Origin: an uncultured Bacteroidales bacterium
GTDB lineage: Bacteria > Bacteroidota > Bacteroidia > Bacteroidales > Muribaculaceae
DNA length: 64,000 nt
Assembly (NCBI GenBank): GCA_949285735.1
Contig: CASEAQ010000001.1
Location: 55,096-119,095, forward strand
Direction of reading: 5' to 3'
Shown here piece by piece: positions 24,683 through 55,260 of the stretch. Made by a program: the position numbers and the translations under genes. The notes beneath the pieces were generated by a model. The model was not told the DNA's origin, ran no database searches, and saw only the letters and a list, made by a program, of their open reading frames with translations. How positions within the stretch are numbered: position 1 is the first letter of the stretch; each line of letters begins with the position of its first letter.

Positions 24683-27139
24683 ATGATTATGGAGAATGAA
24701 ATGACGCGACAGACGTTTCCCGTGCTTGGCATGAGTTGTGCCGCCTGTGCTGCCAGGGTCGAAAAGACTATTGCGCAATTGCCGGGAGTGGTGGGCGCGG
24801 CTGTGAATTTTGCCGCTGCCACGGTGGCGGTGGAGTATGATACCAGGCAGGTGACCCCTGTAGCAATGAAGCAGGCGCTTGAAAACGTGGGCTACGGGCT
24901 TATTGTCGAGACTGGCAAGAAGATGGAAGATGAGGCTGAGAAAGCCCACGAGCAATATATGAAGCGGTTAAGGTTCCGCACCACTTGGGCTATAATCCTT
25001 GCCGTGCCTGTGGCTGTGATAGGCATGGCATTCATGGACGAGCCGTGGGCTGCATGGGTGAGTTGGCTGCTATCGACGCCTGTTGTCTTTTGGCTCGGGA
25101 GCGACTTTTTTGTAAACGCATGGCGGCAATTGAAGCACCGCTCTGCCAACATGGACACGCTCGTTGCCAACAGCACGGGTATTGCCTATCTGTTCAGTGT
25201 TGCCAACTTGTTGTTTCCCGACGTGTGGCACGAGCCTCATGTGTATTTCGAGGCTGCAAGCGTGATTATCGCCTTTATATTGCTCGGACGGCTGCTCGAA
25301 GAGCGTGCAAAGGGGCAGACATCGACTGCCATCAAGAAGTTGATGGGGTTGCGCCCGTCAACGGTGACGCGGCTTGGCATTGACGGGCGGCAAGAGATGG
25401 TGGAGATTGAACAGGTGGCTGTGGGCGACACCATCGTGGTGAAGCCCGGCGAACGGATAGCCGTCGATGGGATTGTTGCCTCGGGCGAGTCGAATGTTGA
25501 CGAGAGTATGCTCAGCGGCGAGCCTGTGCCGGTTGCAAAGCGGCAAGGGGCGCACGTGTATGCAGGAACAATCAACCTGAAGGGCAGCTTCAATTTCACT
25601 GCCCAGAAGGTGGGCGAGGGAACGGTGCTTGCCCAAATCATACGCATGGTGCAGGACGCACAGGGGAGCAAAGCCCCGGTGCAGAAACTTGTTGACCGCA
25701 TTGCTGCCGTCTTTGTGCCGGTGGTGATGTCGATAGCCCTGTTGGCATTTTTGTTGTGGCTGTTCCTCGCTCCAGCCGACGGACTGCTGCACGGGGTGCA
25801 GGCACTCGTCACGGTGCTCATCATTGCTTGCCCGTGTGCCTTGGGGCTTGCCACGCCCACGGCGATAATGGTGGGGATAGGCAAAGGTGCCGAAAACGGG
25901 ATATTGATAAAAGATGCCGTGAGTCTCGAAACGGCTGGGAAAATCGATGCCGTGATGCTCGACAAGACTGGCACAATCACCGAGGGGCAGCCTCGGGTGA
26001 CCGATGTCGCATGGCTTGGCGGCGACGATGGGGCTATGCCCGTGCTGGTGGCGCTGGAGCGGCTGTCGGAGCATCCGCTTGCCGATGCCGTCACCGAGCA
26101 TTTCGGCTGCCCGCTTGCCGAGGTCGAGGTGGAAGGGTTCAAGAGCATAACAGGGCTTGGAATCGAGGGCAGATGTGGCGGAATGCTTTATTACGTGGGC
26201 AACCGCCAGTTGCTTGCCGAGAATGGCATAGACTGCGATGCCGGACTTGAAGAGCGAGCCGAGGCATGGAGCAGCGAAGCCAAGACGGTGATATATTTTG
26301 CCGACAGCAGCAGGCTGCTTGCCGTTGTTGCCATAACCGACCGCATCAAAGCGTCGTCGGCTGAGGCTGTGAGGCAGTTGCAACAGTCGGGGATTGAGGT
26401 GTATATGCTCACGGGCGACAGCGAAGGCACTGCCCGCCACATAGCCAGCCTTGCAGGGATAAGGCATTACCGTGCCGAGGTGCGCCCCGACGGGAAAGCC
26501 GCTTTTGTGAAGCAATTGCAGCAAGAGGGGCATAGGGTGGCAATGGTGGGCGATGGCATCAACGACAGTGCCGCACTGGCGCAAGCCGACTTGAGCATTG
26601 CGATGGGGCAGGGGAGCGACATTGCAATGGACGTTGCCCATGTGACCATCTTGTCGTCCGACTTGCTGAAGGTGCAGGAGACCATCACATTGTCGAAATT
26701 GACCGTGCGCACCATACGCCAAAACTTGTTTTGGGCGTTCATCTATAACACCATCGGCATTCCCATTGCCGCCGGGGCACTTTATCCGGTGTGCCACTTG
26801 TTGCTCAACCCGATGATTGCCGGAATGGCGATGGCTCTGAGCAGCGTGAGCGTGGTGTCGAACAGCTTGCGGCTTAAATCGAGACGAATAACTTCAAATA
26901 ATGAACAAATAACAACAATACAATCAAACACAACAATGGAAAAGGAATATAAAATCGAAGGAATGATGTGCAACCATTGCCGTATGCACGTCGAGAAAGC
27001 CCTAAAGGCAGTGGCAGGAGTGGAAGAAGTGACCGTAACACTCCAACCCCCAGTGGCAAAAGTGAAGTTTGCAGGCGAGGAACTCCCCCTCGAAACCCTG
27101 AAACAAGCAGTGGAAGAAGCAGGATACAAATTGAATTGA
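24683..27139 (+). CDS. copA: Copper-exporting P1B ATPase fused to a C-terminal CopZ-like domain
   Basis: Residues 1-75 hold an N-terminal HMA domain ([12 protein letters not shown]). The P-type ATPase core has the CPC ion motif ([11 protein letters not shown]), phosphorylation site DKTGTIT, SEHPLAD and [20 protein letters not shown]. Copper specificity fits CPC plus the conserved C-terminal membrane residues. After the last helix, an Asn/Thr-rich 20-residue linker leads to a second HMA domain (GMMCNHC, from Met 752). An in-frame ATG at 26936 could start a free 67-residue CopZ-like chaperone. It exports Cu+ from the cytoplasm. No copper regulator is adjacent. Confidence 0.93.
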
Positions 27140-27260: not shown

Positions 27261-28136
27261 CTATTCGCCGAACGAGGGGGCAATGTAGCCCTCTTGTTCA
27301 TATACTCGGTGGTAGCGGTGTATCATTTCAACAAGGGGTGTGAGCCGTGGGTCGGCTATTTGCAGGTGTCGGAATTGTGAGTATTGGAGGTCGTAGAGTG
27401 TGCTGTTGCCCGTTTTTAATCGTTCGTCGATGTCGGCTGGGATGAAAAATGAGGCTCGGTCGGGCAGGTATTTGTAAAATTCCGATTGGTAGATGCTTAT
27501 TCCTGCCAAGTCGAAGTCGCCGAAGTGAATGTATCTGTTGGGAACGTTTATGAGCCAATTGCGCAAGTCGGTCGATTGAGGATAGCGCGACACAAACAGC
27601 ACTTGGCTGGCATCGAACAAGTGGCGTTGCCGTTCGGCGTGTTGGAAGTTTTCGCCATTTTCCATGCCGATGACGACCACATCGGCTGGGAGGCTGAATG
27701 TGTCGGTGTCTTGGATAAATAGAGCCATGCCCTTTGTGGGCGACAGGGTGACGGTGTTGCCACATAGCGATGCCGTGATGGGTTCGCAACATTTTGCGAG
27801 AAAACCTTTGAAACTCCGCGTCTTGATAGTCTTTGAGCTTCCTGTTTCGTTGACCAGTGCAGCCCGTTCCACATCTCCTTCGGCATTGCCGACTGTTTCT
27901 ATCCATCTTGGCAAACAAGTGCCGTTGGTGTATGTCTGTTCTATGTACAGGCGGCATTTTTCCACGTCGGTGACGATGGCTGTTTTGTGGCTGCCGCGGC
28001 TGATGCTCGTTATCAGCCCTTCCGATTGCAGATTGTCGTAGAACCAGCGTGGCAGGGAGCTGTATGGAATCTTGCCGTCGGCGAGCATCGATTCAGCCTT
28101 TTTCGCCAGTGCCGTGGAAAACTTATTATTTTTCAT
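27261..28136 (-). CDS. jetD: JetD-like Toprim nuclease subunit of a Wadjet-type system
   Basis: With ATG at 28136 the product is 291 residues. The N-terminal half looks like a winged-helix/arm region. The C-terminal half has a Toprim-like pair of motifs: VVIGMENGENF with Glu 159 and YIHFGDFDLAGISIY with Asp 207 and Asp 209. These match the metal-binding residues expected of DUF2220/JetD, the subunit that cleaves plasmid DNA in Wadjet systems. The start overlaps the jetC-like stop by 11 bases, so translation is coupled. The longer frame from 28196 has no support. Confidence 0.8.
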   Translation of the reverse strand: MKNNKFSTALAKKAESMLADGKIPYSSLPRWFYDNLQSEGLITSISRGSHKTAIVTDVEKCRLYIEQTYTNGTCLPRWIETVGNAEGDVERAALVNETGSSKTIKTRSFKGFLAKCCEPITASLCGNTVTLSPTKGMALFIQDTDTFSLPADVVVIGMENGENFQHAERQRHLFDASQVLFVSRYPQSTDLRNWLINVPNRYIHFGDFDLAGISIYQSEFYKYLPDRASFFIPADIDERLKTGNSTLYDLQYSQFRHLQIADPRLTPLVEMIHRYHRVYEQEGYIAPSFGE

Positions 28137-31100
28137 CGCGATATATTTTTTGTTTGTTGTCGAGCAGCAGCACGATGTGGGTGTTGCTCTTTGCATCTTT
28201 GTTCAAGAGATAGGTGTAGCGGTAGTCTTCCACATTGTATGTGGTGGGGGAGCTGTTGATGAGCAATATGTTGCGGCTGTTGGCAAAGTCGATGATTCCT
28301 TTTATATTGTTTGGGTGCAGCTTGCCTATTTCGTCCATCATGCAATGTATTTTGAAATCGCCGAATTTGCGTGAGGCTTTTTCCTTGAATACGTTTATGA
28401 GCATGATGTTGACCATAGCTTTCACCAATATGTCGGTGCCGTCCGATCCGACGTTGGCGATTTTCTCGACCCAGCCGGTGTCGTTGTCATTTTCCATTAT
28501 GCGAAATTCCAATTTGAACGTGTCGGCAAGCACGAGGCTCTTGCGCGAGGGGTCGTCGTGCAACAGCTGGCTGAAACTTGTGAGGTATCTCACTGCCTTC
28601 TCGTTGATTTCGGCACGGTTGTCTTGCGAAAACAGGTCGAGCGCACCCATGTTGAATTGGTTGTCATTGTTGAAACGTTGTATTTCCAATAGCAATTGCA
28701 TCAACTTGTCGTTGCTTGCCAGCGGGCGCAACTCGATGCGCTTTATCACGCCTGCAAAATTCCGCCTTACGAAGTCGTTGTTTATGGCATTGATGGTCTT
28801 GTGTATCTCGCTCTCGTTTTGCGTCAGGTCGCCAGTTTCTTTTGAAATGCGTTGTATGATGTTGGTGTAGCGTTCGCTTATGCGGTTTTTGTATTCCGAT
28901 ATTTTGTCGTTTTCGACAAACTCACACAGGTTGGCGGCGAAGTTGTAATAGTCGTCCTCGCTCGACAGTGCCGTGGGGAAGCTGAAAGTGTTTTTTGCCG
29001 AGAAATTTCCCTTGAACAGGTTGACTGCCTGCTTGAAAATTTCGGTACTTTTGTTGAGCGATACGATTTTTGATTTCAGCATCTCGATAATCTCGCTGCA
29101 ACTTTTATTGGTGGGTCGAGTGTCGGAGGTTGCCGATTCGGGCGGGCATAGTATCTCGTCGCTCTTGAACGACTTCAGTTTGTCTAAGTCATCGAGGAGT
29201 CTTTTTTGCTGGTTTGCCAACCTGTTTTGTTCGTTCTGGGCTTCATTGAGCTGCGAATTGAGGCTGTTTCGGTTGGCGTTGTATCGGGCTTTCAGTTCTT
29301 CGATTTTAGCCTCGTTGTTTTTCTTGTCATTTCGCAATTGCAGCTCGTTGTCGAAGTATTCACGCTTGTCTTTCTGGTATTCAATCACCAGTGTGCGGTT
29401 ATCGTCGATATATTTCTGCTCTTTCTTGAGTTCCTTTATTCGCTGTTCATATTTGCTTATTATCGACGTGTCGGCACCTTCGCCGCTCAGTTCGCGGTGT
29501 TGGGCTTGCTGCAATTCGGCTTTGCGCTTTTCTACGTTTGCAGTTTGTTGTGCAATCTCGTTGTTGATGGCAATGATGCTGTCGTTGAGCTGCTTCTTTT
29601 CGGCTGCTTCTTCCTGCAAATATTCATCTGCCACCTGTTTCAGGCACTTTCCTTTCTCTTCGCTCAATAGTTGCAGGTCGCTTTTGATTTTAATTATGCC
29701 GTGCGACTTCGAGTTAAGCTCGTTTTCTATTTTCGTCAGTTCGGTTTGTTTCCATTCCTCTTCTCTTTTTTGTAATGTAACCAAGTCGGCTTTGGCATTT
29801 TTTATTTTCGACGGGATTTGCCCAAGTTGGGCTTCGAGCAATTGTTGTTGCTCGATGGTGGCACTGATGAGCTTGTTGTAATTGTTCTTTGTGCGTTCGG
29901 TTGCGGCAGTTTTCTCCTCTGAGAGTTTCAGCAGTTGGCGAGTATATTCCTCGCATTTGGCTGTTTTGCTGCCGATTTCTTCTTTTATTTTTGTCAACGA
30001 CGGCACTTCGCGGTTGACGCACGACAAGTCTAATCCTATGCCGAACATTGATGTTGCGCCATCAGGCAAGAGCCGAGGGTTAAGCTCTTGGTTGAAGAGG
30101 ATGTATTCGGTGTCGGCAACTTTCCCTATTGTGTCGTGCCAAGCGGGAACATTGTTGTCGAGCCATTCGCATAACGAACCTTTGTGCTTCTCGACAAGGC
30201 TGTTAAGGTAGCTAATCTCTTTTTGCAAATCTTCGCGCAAGCGGCGCAGTTGGGTGGCTTGGTTGTCGAAGGGTTGGCTTGTCTTTGCCATCTCCTCTTT
30301 GCATTCTTGTCTCAACTTCTCGGTTTGGAGCTTCAGGTGTTCGATTTGGTTGGAAACATTGTTTTGCTCGTGTTCCAAATTTCTGATAACCGACTCGCAT
30401 TCATCAATCTCGGTTTTGAAGTGCGGCACGGCATTGATTGATTGCTTCTTGTTAATCAGGGCGTTTTGCTCTTTTTCGAGTTCAAGTAGGTCCTCGCGCA
30501 TTTTTTCTCGCTTCTCGTCAAATCGCTCCCTCACAATGTTTTCTTGCTCGATGCGCCTGTTGCGAATGTCGTTTATGCGCTTGTTGGCAGCTTCGGTCAG
30601 TTTCAGCAGGGCTTGATTCCTCTCGATTTCAAAAGCCTTCAGGTCGTTGTATAACTGCGCTTCAAGCATCTGGTATTTCTTGATTATGTCGTTGTGGGCT
30701 GCTGTGAGTTCTTCATACATTCGTTGCTGCCTCTCCAATTCTTGGACAACCGAATTTTCGTTTGCCACGCGCCTCATCACTTCGGCGATGTTGCGTGCGT
30801 TATAGTATTGGCGTTGTCGGTCGATGTATTTCAATTTTTCGTTGAAGCTACCCTCTATCTCGCTCAGTTTGTCGCGTTCCTTTTCATATCGTGCGTTTTC
30901 TTCGCCGATGAGTTGCCTTATGTGGGCTACTTTTTCGGCAGCTTGCATTATTTGTTCGTCGAGAGCAGGGCGCAACCTTTTTGCCTCGCTTTCGGCGAAA
31001 TTCAATTCGGCTCGCAAGTCGGCTATTTCCTTTTTGGTGTATAGCAAGTTGCGGTAATACTTTATGGCGTTGTCGGCTTGCTTGCGCACGGCAATTTCTC

Positions 31101-31812
31101 CGTTGCGGTTGGGCTTGAGCCAAAGCATCACGTCGTTGTGTTCTTGTTCAAACACTTCGATTTGACTACGGTAGTAGGACAGGTCGATTGAAATTTCCTC
31201 GTCGTTCATCGAGCGTATGATGGTGTCCTTTATGAAATCGGCATCGAGCTTTGAGTTGAGGAACACATTTTGAATGGTGCGAGGAATGTTTTGGTATTTG
31301 GGGCTTTCCACGATGGCATATTTCCGGTAGAGCGTCATTTCTGATTTGCGGTTGTTGCCGAAAATTATGTCGCGATAGGTTTCGTAGTTGGTTATCAGTG
31401 GGGTCGAAGATATGTGCGACAGGGCGATGCGGCTGCGGATTTCGCTCCAGTCGGCGGACACCTCGTTGTTGGAGTTGATGAACCACTCCTTTGAATAAGG
31501 GGCATCGACAAAGCGGAATGCCGCCCTGCCCATCGATTTCATCACTACGACCGAGTAGGCACCGTTTTCGCGCATCACTTCATATACGATGTAGGAATTG
31601 GAATAGGGCAGGTAGAAGGCATCGAAACCCTTCTTTTCTTTGGGAATGCCCAATCGCTGTTTGTCGGCATTGTAGAAAAACAGTATGGCTCGCAGCAGGG
31701 TACTTTTGCCCACGCCTTGGGTTCCGATGAAGTGGACATTGCCGTCGATTTTCACTTCGGCGTATGGAATATGCGCGCTGTTTAGGAATATTATTTTATT
31801 CAGGTATCTCAT
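28126..31812 (-). CDS. jetC: JetC/MukB-like SMC ATPase
   Basis: The 1228-residue protein has an N-terminal Walker A (GTQGVGKST, residues 30-38). Very long coiled coils follow (roughly 240-480 and 600-900, with many Gln/Glu/Lys heptads). A C-terminal ATPase half carries a signature-like GSDGTDILVKAM and Walker B KIHCMMDEIGKL near 1157, then NILLINSSPT. This split head plus coiled-coil arm defines an SMC/MukB-type motor. In Wadjet it extrudes loops of circular DNA and activates JetD. It overlaps jetB by 17 bases and jetD by 11, so all must be made together. The sequence looks more AT-rich and Lys-rich than neighbouring operons. Confidence 0.88.
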   Translation of the reverse strand: MRYLNKIIFLNSAHIPYAEVKIDGNVHFIGTQGVGKSTLLRAILFFYNADKQRLGIPKEKKGFDAFYLPYSNSYIVYEVMRENGAYSVVVMKSMGRAAFRFVDAPYSKEWFINSNNEVSADWSEIRSRIALSHISSTPLITNYETYRDIIFGNNRKSEMTLYRKYAIVESPKYQNIPRTIQNVFLNSKLDADFIKDTIIRSMNDEEISIDLSYYRSQIEVFEQEHNDVMLWLKPNRNGEIAVRKQADNAIKYYRNLLYTKKEIADLRAELNFAESEAKRLRPALDEQIMQAAEKVAHIRQLIGEENARYEKERDKLSEIEGSFNEKLKYIDRQRQYYNARNIAEVMRRVANENSVVQELERQQRMYEELTAAHNDIIKKYQMLEAQLYNDLKAFEIERNQALLKLTEAANKRINDIRNRRIEQENIVRERFDEKREKMREDLLELEKEQNALINKKQSINAVPHFKTEIDECESVIRNLEHEQNNVSNQIEHLKLQTEKLRQECKEEMAKTSQPFDNQATQLRRLREDLQKEISYLNSLVEKHKGSLCEWLDNNVPAWHDTIGKVADTEYILFNQELNPRLLPDGATSMFGIGLDLSCVNREVPSLTKIKEEIGSKTAKCEEYTRQLLKLSEEKTAATERTKNNYNKLISATIEQQQLLEAQLGQIPSKIKNAKADLVTLQKREEEWKQTELTKIENELNSKSHGIIKIKSDLQLLSEEKGKCLKQVADEYLQEEAAEKKQLNDSIIAINNEIAQQTANVEKRKAELQQAQHRELSGEGADTSIISKYEQRIKELKKEQKYIDDNRTLVIEYQKDKREYFDNELQLRNDKKNNEAKIEELKARYNANRNSLNSQLNEAQNEQNRLANQQKRLLDDLDKLKSFKSDEILCPPESATSDTRPTNKSCSEIIEMLKSKIVSLNKSTEIFKQAVNLFKGNFSAKNTFSFPTALSSEDDYYNFAANLCEFVENDKISEYKNRISERYTNIIQRISKETGDLTQNESEIHKTINAINNDFVRRNFAGVIKRIELRPLASNDKLMQLLLEIQRFNNDNQFNMGALDLFSQDNRAEINEKAVRYLTSFSQLLHDDPSRKSLVLADTFKLEFRIMENDNDTGWVEKIANVGSDGTDILVKAMVNIMLINVFKEKASRKFGDFKIHCMMDEIGKLHPNNIKGIIDFANSRNILLINSSPTTYNVEDYRYTYLLNKDAKSNTHIVLLLDNKQKIYRDEK

Positions 31813-32347
31813 CTTTTGCCTCCTCCGATATGGTTATACAATCTACCAAGTCCTCCATGTAGTGGAATGCGGTGAGCACTTTGTAGGTTTCGTCGTGTTC
31901 GTTTTCGAGTTCAATCATTCCGGCTTTCAAGAGTTCGGAAATCAGCTTTTCGACAATTTCGCCATATTTCTTTTTGTCGGAAAACAGTCGGGTGGCTTTT
32001 TCCTTAAGCTCCATGTTGCACCCTATCTGTACCTCGATGTCGGCTGCGCGGAACAACACGCCAGGGCTGAATGTGGTGTCGTAGGTCTTCAGGAAGCTCA
32101 AGTAGTCGATCCATTTCCATGCCGCCTCAAGTTTGCGCTCGATGTCAACCTTGCTTTCGCGGCGAGTAAACAAGTAGTAGCCGTCGCCTCCTTCGAGGTA
32201 GAAACCGATTCCCTTGTAATAGTTGTAGTAGTCGTTGAAATCGTCTTCGATGGCATCGTAGTAGCGTTTTATCTGGGGCGAAACGCTATTGATGGAGATG
32301 AAGCCTCCGCGGCTGAGTATGTTGAATATTTCTTCGGTATATTTCAT
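31796..32347 (-). CDS. jetB: JetB/MukE-like subunit
   Basis: The 183-residue protein appears to be a winged-helix type: EIFNILSRGGFISINSVSP and a C-terminal VEKLISELLKAGMIELENE. An acidic middle contains DDFNDYYNYYKGIGFYLEGG. Size and place, directly between the kleisin-like and SMC genes, fit JetB/MukE (KITE-type) subunits. It would bind the kleisin and regulate the ATPase. The assignment rests mainly on context; the family is too divergent for certainty by eye. Its end overlaps jetC by 17 bases. Confidence 0.7.
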   Translation of the reverse strand: MKYTEEIFNILSRGGFISINSVSPQIKRYYDAIEDDFNDYYNYYKGIGFYLEGGDGYYLFTRRESKVDIERKLEAAWKWIDYLSFLKTYDTTFSPGVLFRAADIEVQIGCNMELKEKATRLFSDKKKYGEIVEKLISELLKAGMIELENEHDETYKVLTAFHYMEDLVDCITISEEAKDEIPE

Positions 32348-32398
32348 ATTGTGATTTTTGTGGAAAATGTGGGTTGTTGATTGGAGAATGGCAGTGCT

Positions 32399-33595
32399 TC
32401 ACAAGGCATATATCAGAGGATACTCGACGTTGCCTGCCGATGCGTATTGGTCGGTGAACTGCAACTCGTCGGCATATTGTGAAGCTATTTGGCAGAAAAA
32501 CAACAGTTTGTCGCTCTCGGTCACTGGCTTGTGGTAGCGATAACTTGCAACGAAGTTGAACAAATGGGTTCCCGATGCGGCAAATGCGTTGAAGACTTCT
32601 TGCAGGTTGATGGTGTCGATTACCTCGGTTTGCTCGTTCATATATTCGGCAGGAATGGCATTGGCAATGTTCTTGGGGGCAGAAGTCTTGCCTCGTTGCC
32701 GTGTCATCACTTTCCTTATCACCTCCAAAGCTGTGTTTGACGAGCGCAGCAGCTCAATCGAAAGTTTTATACGGTAGTTGGTCTGCGTTTCCATCCACAA
32801 GGGATTCTTGAAAGCCAGCACTTGGCGAATGTCGGTGTGCTCTTCAAGCAGGAATTGGTCGCGCAAGTATTTCAGTTTGCGTACTTTTTCGAATATGCGG
32901 TTTTGGTATGCAATCAGGTTGAGGTAGTGGATTATTTGTTTTTCTATCTCAATCAGGTTGTGAAACGAGTCGTTGAGTTGCAGTTTCACATCGCTCACCA
33001 CCGTGCGCATTTGCACGTCCATCGCTACATTGAAGAATGTCGGTTGCCGAGTGTTTATTACTTCCTCGCTTTGGGTGATGAGCGTGGCTATGTTACGCCG
33101 TTTCTCGTCGAGGTTTTTCAGTTTTGCTAATTTGATTTGGTAGTTTGGTTCGTTTTTGTAGGTGTTGTCGATGTTTCGTTTCAAGTCGATGACGTTGCGC
33201 ATGGTCGTGAGGGCGATGTTTTTCAAGCATCGTTTCACTTCTCGCTGGTAGGCGTATTTCCGTTGCTCGTTGGTCTCCTTCAGATAGTAATCGATGTTTT
33301 CGTTCAGGCGGTCTAAATGGTCGCGCACGAAAGCTACGTTTATCTCTTCGTTGACCTGCAACACGTTTTCAAAGAAATTGAGGTATATATCCTCCATTTC
33401 CAAGAAGTCGCCGCTTTCGCGTATTATGCCATACTCGATGAGGAATTTTATGAGGTCTTCGTCGTAGTCGGTGAGTTCGAGGGCATAATCATAGTTGAAC
33501 GACTGTGATTTGCGCTTGTTGAACAATTCCTTTAGCAGCACTTTTCCACGGTCGAGACTCCTCACCAGTTCGTCGATAGAGCGGAACGTATTCAT
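32399..33595 (-). CDS. jetA: JetA/MukF-like kleisin subunit
   Basis: The 398-residue protein is mostly helical. An N-terminal winged-helix-like part (about 10-75, with FLIEYGIIRESGDFLEMEDI) is followed by long helices rich in Lys/Asn/Gln and a C-terminal globular part. This is the expected shape of a MukF/JetA-type kleisin that bridges SMC heads. It is first in the four-gene operon, 51 bases before jetB, in the JetABCD order. Assignment is by position and architecture. Confidence 0.7.
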   Translation of the reverse strand: MNTFRSIDELVRSLDRGKVLLKELFNKRKSQSFNYDYALELTDYDEDLIKFLIEYGIIRESGDFLEMEDIYLNFFENVLQVNEEINVAFVRDHLDRLNENIDYYLKETNEQRKYAYQREVKRCLKNIALTTMRNVIDLKRNIDNTYKNEPNYQIKLAKLKNLDEKRRNIATLITQSEEVINTRQPTFFNVAMDVQMRTVVSDVKLQLNDSFHNLIEIEKQIIHYLNLIAYQNRIFEKVRKLKYLRDQFLLEEHTDIRQVLAFKNPLWMETQTNYRIKLSIELLRSSNTALEVIRKVMTRQRGKTSAPKNIANAIPAEYMNEQTEVIDTINLQEVFNAFAASGTHLFNFVASYRYHKPVTESDKLLFFCQIASQYADELQFTDQYASAGNVEYPLIYAL

Positions 33596-33639
33596 TTACA
33601 GTTAATGGCAAAAGAATTATGTTGTGGTTCGTGATGCCG

Positions 33640-33671
33640 TAAAGTTACGACAATAGAGCCACAATTACAAA
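33640..33671 (-). promoter_or_regulatory. Promoter of the Wadjet-like operon
   Basis: On the minus strand TTTG (33671-33668), a 20-base spacer and TAACTTTA (33647-33640) give a near-consensus promoter. The jetA ATG is about 45 bases downstream. It is insulated from the neuB operon by the terminator at 33697. Confidence 0.6.
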
Positions 33672-33696: not shown

Positions 33697-33733
33697 ACTG
33701 AGGCGGCGTTTCTGGTTGAAATGCCGCCTCAGT
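33697..33733 (-). terminator. Terminator of the neuB operon
   Basis: ACTGAGGCGGC (33697-33707) pairs perfectly with GCCGCCTCAGT (33723-33733). On the minus strand it runs into TTTTATTAT, ten bases after the neuB stop. Confidence 0.85.
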
Positions 33734-55025: not shown

Positions 55026-55260
55026 TCAATTTTTTCCGATGCAAAAATACAAAAAAATATTCCACCATTTTGTTTTTAACAAAACAAATGCAAATATTGT
55101 GCCTTCTTTTGGGTGATTCGTATCGGTGGTGTATAGAGTTAAAAACCAGTTGCTTCGGCGTGGTATTTCGGGATTCCAAACGAGCTGTGTTTTAATATTT
55201 GTTTGCAATATTTGAAGCATTTAAACCATGTTGTTGAGGTATCGTTTACAAATAGTTTTG

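Follow-up and report, generated by a model that had tools for sequence, protein, structure and literature searches.

A probable plasmid-restriction operon of the Wadjet/MksBEFG group, of a divergent branch, in an uncultured Muribaculaceae bacterium

In type I Wadjet/MksBEFG systems (those of Corynebacterium glutamicum, Escherichia coli GF4-3 and Pseudomonas aeruginosa PA14) four co-directional genes specify, in this order, a kleisin, a KITE subunit, an SMC ATPase and a nuclease. The model put forward in one portion of PMC10586767 is of a dimeric motor that extrudes a DNA circle until none of it remains, whereupon the nuclease cuts; in the same portion, MksBEF of P. aeruginosa is viewed as the likely product of a loss of JetD. 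MukBEF, which lacks a nuclease, folds the chromosome, according to a section of PMC7617805. The operon considered here has the gene order of the type I systems. It lies in a stretch of 64,000 bases ("the window": positions 55,096 to 119,095 of contig CASEAQ010000001.1, assembly GCA_949285735.1) from an uncultured Bacteroidales bacterium of the Muribaculaceae, whose assembled genome is 79.76% complete. On the minus strand of the window, from 33595 to 27261, four intact, co-directional genes, called A, B, C and D below, probably make up a complete module for plasmid restriction, belonging to a divergent branch of the Wadjet/MksBEFG group.

If the analogy with type I Wadjet holds, the kleisin A, the KITE subunit B and the SMC ATPase C would form a loop-extruding motor holding D, a nuclease resembling Topo VI-A; D would cleave DNA through a Toprim site that depends on Mg (E159, D207, D209) once extrusion of a small circle is complete. 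On the same grounds closed circles would be expected to activate the system, the chromosome to be spared and plasmids to be lost. Some gut Bacteroidales would then carry a plasmid barrier that the annotation examined leaves unnamed, one relevant to gene transfer among gut bacteria and to the genetic tractability of isolates. With a D of 291 residues, the branch also offers a way to test the lower size limit of a Wadjet nuclease.

Four genes and their conserved residues

The genes of the operon are these:
32399..33595, minus strand: gene A, 398 residues, putative kleisin of JetA/MukF type, assigned by the fold of an AlphaFold2 model
31796..32347, minus strand: gene B, 183 residues, KITE subunit of MksE/JetB type, assigned by Pfam and profile comparison
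28126..31812, minus strand: gene C, 1228 residues, SMC ATPase of the MksB/JetC kind, assigned by PF12128
27261..28136, minus strand: gene D, 291 residues from an inner ATG, nuclease of JetD/MksG type, with winged helix and Toprim domain

Every frame is open; B and C overlap by 17 bases and C and D by 11. An original prediction, made from the letters of the DNA, had listed these four genes with the same sizes and overlaps, to which the strand is now added. (A technical note: the longest open reading frame over gene D has 311 residues and starts at 28196; the inner ATG was preferred because relatives start close to it.)

Relatives were sought by a scan of genome contigs, which found 416; the best 80 were kept, and 89 loci were examined. 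The order ABCD is seen in 75 of the 89 (at least two of these being second fetches of one contig), and one further locus has D in two pieces. Nine of the remaining 13 are cut by contig ends; the others are L075 (Bacteroides fragilis S82), which is ABC without D, L074, without A and D, L103, without A and B, and L052, without A. B and C overlap by exactly 17 bases in 40 of 80 complete sets, and C and D by 4 in 44 of 80. Whichever two of the four genes are compared, their pairwise distances are correlated (r 0.75-0.96; none of 500 permutations is as high), as shared descent alone would also have them be. The residue counts given below refer to the 80 complete sets and the window, 81 in all.

Gene C matches PF12128 (DUF3584) from residue 18 to residue 1191 (E 2.3e-69), and its ATPase motifs are all but invariant:
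31699..31725, minus strand: Walker A of C, GTQGVGKST, residues 30-38 (G30, G33, G35, K36 and S37 in 81/81 sequences, T38 in 80/81)
28330..28335, minus strand: Walker B aspartate and catalytic glutamate of C, D1160 and E1161 (CMMDE), both in 81/81
28435..28449, minus strand: ABC signature position of C, GSDGT, residues 1122-1126, placed by alignment with JetC and MukB

Walker A thus stands where it had been predicted, and the Walker B foreseen near residue 1157 turns out to be D1160/E1161. The G, S, G and T of the signature are present in all 81 sequences; its third residue is D in 63 and E in 18.

Gene D belongs to PF23947 (DUF7281; E 3.6e-8). Its structure model has a pLDDT (predicted local distance difference test) of 93 and comprises a winged helix at about residues 8-55, helices to about residue 98, and then the Toprim fold that the original prediction had foretold; in the strand order of that fold E159 follows the first strand, and D207 and D209 follow the third. 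The foremost three Foldseek matches of the model are Topo VI-A (1.2e-4), Spo11 (1.6e-4) and JetD of P. aeruginosa (7til, 1.2e-3, probability 0.99). The predicted metal-site residues, all three foreseen, are invariant, and a C-terminal Gln-Glu is nearly so:
27660..27662, minus strand: Toprim metal-site glutamate of D, E159 (81/81), aligned with the Glu of type I JetD
27510..27518, minus strand: Toprim DxD of D, D207 and D209 (81/81), aligned with the DxD of type I JetD
27291..27296, minus strand: C-terminal Gln-Glu of D, Q281 and E282 (79/81, two gapped), corresponding to the EQE end of type I JetD

A passage of PMC10123090 reports that the nuclease activity of C. glutamicum MksG is drastically impaired by the substitutions E236A and D279A; for JetD it mentions two glutamates, close to the C terminus, that were proposed as nucleophiles.

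Gene B is a member of Pfam PF21980, MksE (E 2.7e-40). Gene A, by its fold, is taken to be the kleisin, the matched chains themselves presumably being kleisins. Its AlphaFold2 model (pLDDT 76) has a winged helix at the N-terminal end, long helices, a loose linker and a C-terminal winged helix, and the top nine Foldseek matches are, without exception, Wadjet or MukBEF entries (the best being 8as8_E at 3.2e-4, 9gm7_C at 3.4e-4 and 8q72_E at 3.8e-4). Subunits A and B had previously been guessed from their positions; the one now has an assignment by fold and the other by profile.

As a side observation, the four proteins have not changed at one pace: identity to the nearest relative (L034) is 76% for A, 83% for B, 57% for C and 56% for D, and D evolves faster than A and B. 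Within C the first hundred residues and residues 1101-1200 are 89-93% identical to those of L034, residues 301-900 32-46%.

Likeness to and distance from described systems

How close is this operon to the Jet proteins already described? Wadjet type was judged by the PADLOC models (types I-III) and by published descriptions. For direct comparison, type I sets were taken from stretches of nine genomes (JetD_C having been found in 26 of 198 sampled Bacteroidota, the window's genome not among them), and profiles were run one against one. The B profile matches type I JetB at E 1.3e-5 (probability 81%), and the D profile matches JetD at E 5.6e-4 (probability 30%), in an alignment that sets the Glu, DxD and terminal Gln-Glu of D against their JetD counterparts. 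In PADLOC the best model for window C is JetC1 (5.3e-6, over residues 1-53 alone) and for window D JetD1 (6e-4). Relatives fare somewhat likewise: the D proteins of L283 and L105 reach JetD1 at 6.3e-6 and 2.2e-5, and the B protein of L011 matches JetB1 at 4.4e-4. Going by these sequences, this appears to be a variant that the models of types I-III hardly see, of a kind that is itself known.

The differences from type I are of several sorts. The Pfam families are DUF3584, MksE and DUF7281 in the window operon, as against DUF4194 and JetD_C/DUF2220 in type I, where JetA is DUF3375. Compared with type I sets from Bacteroidota, A is shorter (398 residues against 482-506), D is shorter by about 100 residues (291 against 380-403) and C is longer (1228 against 1122-1137); the JetD-like fold with its Glu, DxD and C-terminal (E)QE is common to both. 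JetD_C (PF09983) scores 11.2 bits on window D (E 0.23), below its cut-off of 22. The PADLOC model JetC3 was of no help: it "matches" 101 of 198 Bacteroidota genomes, at about 29 bits or less and over coiled coil.

A number of results weigh against placing the operon with Wadjet, and they are best seen together. The signature of C is GSDGT, that of type I JetC SGGE or SGGQ, and the match between the C and JetC profiles (E 5.6e-5, probability 66%) is confined to the Walker B region. The A profile does not significantly match type I JetA (E 0.079) and fails with MukF (E 0.098), and the B profile does not match E. coli MukE (E 0.069). Gene A has no credible Pfam family, and neither A nor B meets any PADLOC Jet model at E up to 1; nor do the A protein of L034 and the D protein of L015 match a Jet model. 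Searches of solved structures, by profile for A and B and by both single query and profile for C and D, returned no Wadjet or MukBEF match (the 41 profile matches of C resemble coiled coils). For A the top five Foldseek matches have low TM-scores (template modelling scores), 0.11-0.27 when taken of query or target, which makes this a match of topology rather than a rigid superposition; for D they are moderate, 0.33-0.43 of the query and 0.26-0.43 overall in the top three. Lastly, operons with ABC and no adjoining D exist (see below): the motor accordingly has a use apart from restriction and does not by itself imply it. To that extent the earlier Wadjet interpretation needs trimming, and its word "active" claims more than sequence can show; as an assignment to a Wadjet-type operon it is supported.

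Two other families of relatives help to place the operon. Window B falls in a Pfam family named for MksE, and window A resembles chains of MukBEF by fold; E. coli MukB itself is distant from window C in a tree of ATPase heads (FastTree, the one method used for all trees here), in which 101 DUF3584 sequences stand apart, with support 0.88, from a set made up of E. coli MukB and six JetC sequences of type I. (The root was placed by us at that very split, and Smc, RecN, P. aeruginosa MksB and type II and III Jet proteins stand outside the tree.) The expectation that the ATPase would not group with MukB is borne out within those bounds. Topo VI A/Spo11, the other family, shares with D the combination of winged helix and Toprim and supplies its top two Foldseek matches, but D has no invariant or nearly invariant tyrosine in its first 100 residues (45 sequences).

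More distantly akin to the window lineage are plasmid-borne operons of Proteobacteria with the order C-B-A-D (Aromatoleum, L115; Vibrio breoganii, L116; Pseudomonas, L119; and Vibrio vulnificus, L120, cut at the fourth gene). DUF7281 is present in all three tested, and DUF3584 together with MksE in the one tested (L115); their D profile matches that of the window lineage at E 3.9e-13 and their A profile at 1.3e-4. The gene order differs, C is about 22-25% identical over the matched part, and annotation calls A, B and D hypothetical proteins and C an ATP-binding protein. Members of the lineage proper are also found in metagenome-assembled genomes named Fibrobacter, Lentisphaeria and Melioribacter, where contamination is possible. 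The original prediction of a divergent lineage of Bacteroidales type therefore stands as to divergence and not as to confinement to Bacteroidales. Separately, a relative of C is carried by 22 plasmid records, and among the 20 that were listed 17 exceed 100 kb, a size said to escape Wadjet; the figure has no baseline, and some of the plasmid labels are doubtful.

As for prior notice, a 2025 paper on MukBEF surveyed Wadjet operons with a filter for MksF of 400-1200 residues (PMC7617805), and its operon table may hold relatives of the window operon. A literature search that left most subscription papers outside its scope did not find DUF7281, and the five DUF3584 papers in it were, by title, not on Wadjet; absence from print is not claimed.

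Distribution, nuclease-less relatives and rival explanations

Gene C is present in three of the nine genomes of the window's genus (the other two copies being 38-39% identical) and in 8 of 61 related genomes; the count is 8 rather than 9 because it excludes a coiled-coil match of 22 bits in G027. Among 247 Bacteroidales genomes C occurs in 18 (E up to 1e-30) and D in 15, and all 15 are among the 18. A sample of 296 genomes from across the phylum yielded D in the genome of the window and, as a weak and partial match, in one other. In two members of the genus the genes that flank the window operon enclose two other genes instead, of 750-752 and 97 residues (G004, C14 14741-17457; G006, C2 84397-87119); in the other six the flanking genes are far apart or on separate contigs. 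Of 164 neighbour proteins listed, 120 were scanned, these coming from 41 loci: five at most share any one Pfam family, and PADLOC gives some matches, at most four of the 120 for any one model (pAgo), with no background for comparison. Patchy, site-variable inheritance and the want of a recurrent neighbour are the behaviour of acquired modules, which argues against a housekeeping condensin.

Three of the 18 Bacteroidales genomes with C are without an adjoining D: in one the contig ends, and in two (L209 and L210) ABC is present and D is not. The genus of one of these, apparently Phocaeicola, has C in 33 of 60 genomes; among the 37 with completeness of 90% or more and contamination of 5% or less, the number with C is 27. 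Two classes of C can be told apart by score. The higher-scoring class has 15 loci, and D is present in every one of the 13 that were fetched. The lower-scoring class comprises 21 full-length loci (fragments in G589, G590 and G596 being left out, and D sought beside C only): 18 are without D, two have it and one is not judgeable. L297 ends 448 bases 3' of C, so that 17 of the 18 absences are secure. The 21 loci form one clade with support 1.00, joined by L114, at the edge of a viral contig; the sister is P. distasonis (0.98). (The loci of this D-less clade are L210 and L280-L299; L117 is listed alongside them.) Parsimony requires five changes of D over 133 tips, and the two D proteins within the clade are 43% alike. 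For each of them the four best other proteins listed reach 31-37%, a difference in keeping with an old D that was lost repeatedly.

What do the D-less operons have in place of the nuclease? A conserved replacement effector was looked for and rejected, no downstream family occurring in more than 4 of 25 loci, and so was a single conserved site for the clade: the commonest upstream neighbour is found in just 7 of the 25. That the sites differ speaks against a settled housekeeping gene. Records of Phocaeicola massiliensis labelled "plasmid" were likewise set aside as proof of plasmid carriage, the label being doubtful because a 3.1-Mb contig carries both kinds of operon. As for L114 (IMGVR_UViG_2913987674_000003), this predicted viral contig ends within a C of the clade, with C at its edge and other genes after it, an arrangement such as would result if a prophage adjoined the operon.

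These relatives give the most substantial of the rival explanations its footing: that the operon is a chromosomal MksBEF-like condensin of a lineage devoid of Smc, in which the nuclease D has an accessory or quality-control role. None of the 21 genomes sampled around the window, from genus to order (G000-G012, G037-G044), has a canonical Smc above the cut-off, weak matches being all that they yield (the apparently-Phocaeicola genus was not searched); among 118 Bacteroidota, at most five candidates per genome being scored, 99 have one. In addition, 15 other genomes of the same class show no match at 1e-40. (Bacteroides ihuae, a named control in the scan of the 118, was not among the 11 of 14 that gave a signal.) To this can be added the 18 of 21 loci of a fully supported clade that make do with ABC. 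Yet a needed condensin would be kept, and kept in synteny, whereas C is missing from six of the nine genomes of the genus and from 229 of the 247 Bacteroidales (E up to 1e-30), and is found at varying sites; moreover the nuclease is in the operon, and D keeps step with C. For the window operon a condensin is, on balance, improbable.

Nor does a defence module need to be aimed at plasmids. Phages, or integrative elements with a circular stage, might be the real target: the same anatomy fits, the sequence sets no target, and D was not found in a phage collection and viral contigs, so that it appears to be host-side. The restriction reported for the group, as far as the relevant parts of PMC10586767 and PMC10123090 go, is directed at plasmids, and this alternative is accordingly given a slim chance. 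Assignment to a repair or abortive-infection module of the Rad50/RecN or Lamassu kind is much less probable still. C does match LmuB weakly (E 0.46; 9.2e-5 in a proteobacterial relative) and Rad50 as well (0.01), over long internal stretches in both cases; the Smc model is another weak match, NCBIfam otherwise offers nothing useful and a RecN model is unlisted. But C is DUF3584 from end to end and has no full-length match to those ATPases, and such systems are not known to include an MksE subunit, a kleisin fold or a JetD-type nuclease. That the operon is a decayed, inactive remnant is hardly credible: the proteins are strongly diverged, and some relatives (L063, L218, L103 and L074) are broken or short of a gene, but in the window all four frames are intact and the motifs are invariant.

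With plasmid restriction retained as the probable function of the window operon, the D-less clade invites a conjecture of its own. A study by Hi-C reports no known condensin in Bacteroides caecimuris and M. intestinale and a weak arm-alignment signal in B. caecimuris, and one of its headings has Bacteroides relying on unidentified SMC complexes (PMC10197239). A clade of ABC without D, taken together with the absence of Smc from the 21 genomes around the window, makes that clade a candidate, no more, for the condensin in question. One can go further and suppose that Bacteroidales lost Smc and that in some of them a nuclease-shed derivative of this Wadjet lineage became the chromosome-folding condensin missed by Hi-C in Bacteroides, the window operon being its armed sister and a single SMC family moving between plasmid killing and chromosome care. 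Such a scheme, which would extend to the apparently-Phocaeicola genus, P. distasonis and single loci in B. fragilis and elsewhere, is speculative and rather unlikely. A D-less clade in an order without Smc in the sampled genomes does make the question of how Bacteroides fold their chromosomes a testable one.

Some operons of the lineage hold additional genes, inserted between A and B or between B and C: nucleases of the DUF1016/YhcG PDDEXK kind in L015 (4597-5637, recognised by eye) and L065 (6190-7227, by Pfam). An AlbA_2 regulator is inserted within the operon of L084 (6439-7983).

Promoter, terminator and flanks

Reading along the minus strand from 33744, one passes the end of a sialic-acid synthase-like gene, a hairpin and a promoter pattern before reaching A-B-C-D:
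33697..33733, minus strand: hairpin and T-rich tract (inverted repeat I7), 3' of the sialic-acid synthase-like gene
33641..33671, minus strand: predicted Bacteroidetes-like promoter, TTTG-N20-TAACTTT, with -33 box TTTG and -7 box TAACTTT, 45 bases 5' of the ATG of A

These boxes follow the consensus of Bacteroidetes promoters. The pattern has 16 matches in the window against 2.4 expected, a number reached by none of 100 shuffles; one of the 16 falls within C, so that a single match proves little. A scan for sigma-70 promoters gave eight matches against 7.1 expected, nothing beyond chance. The -33 box lies at 33671, where the original prediction had drawn the boundary of the operon. The hairpin folds as RNA with -25.6 kcal/mol (z -7.6 against 200 shuffles) and is probably the terminator of the sialic-acid synthase-like gene upstream; a consensus terminator scan, by which terminators in the window are no commoner than by chance, does not list it.

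Scans of the window for tRNA genes and Rfam families found none. On the question of other defence genes, which had been thought absent from the window, a PADLOC scan of its 38 other proteins matched three families, each with one protein. At its far end the operon is met by a convergent gene (24683-27139, plus strand) whose product, named by eye from its sequence, resembles a copper-transporting ATPase.

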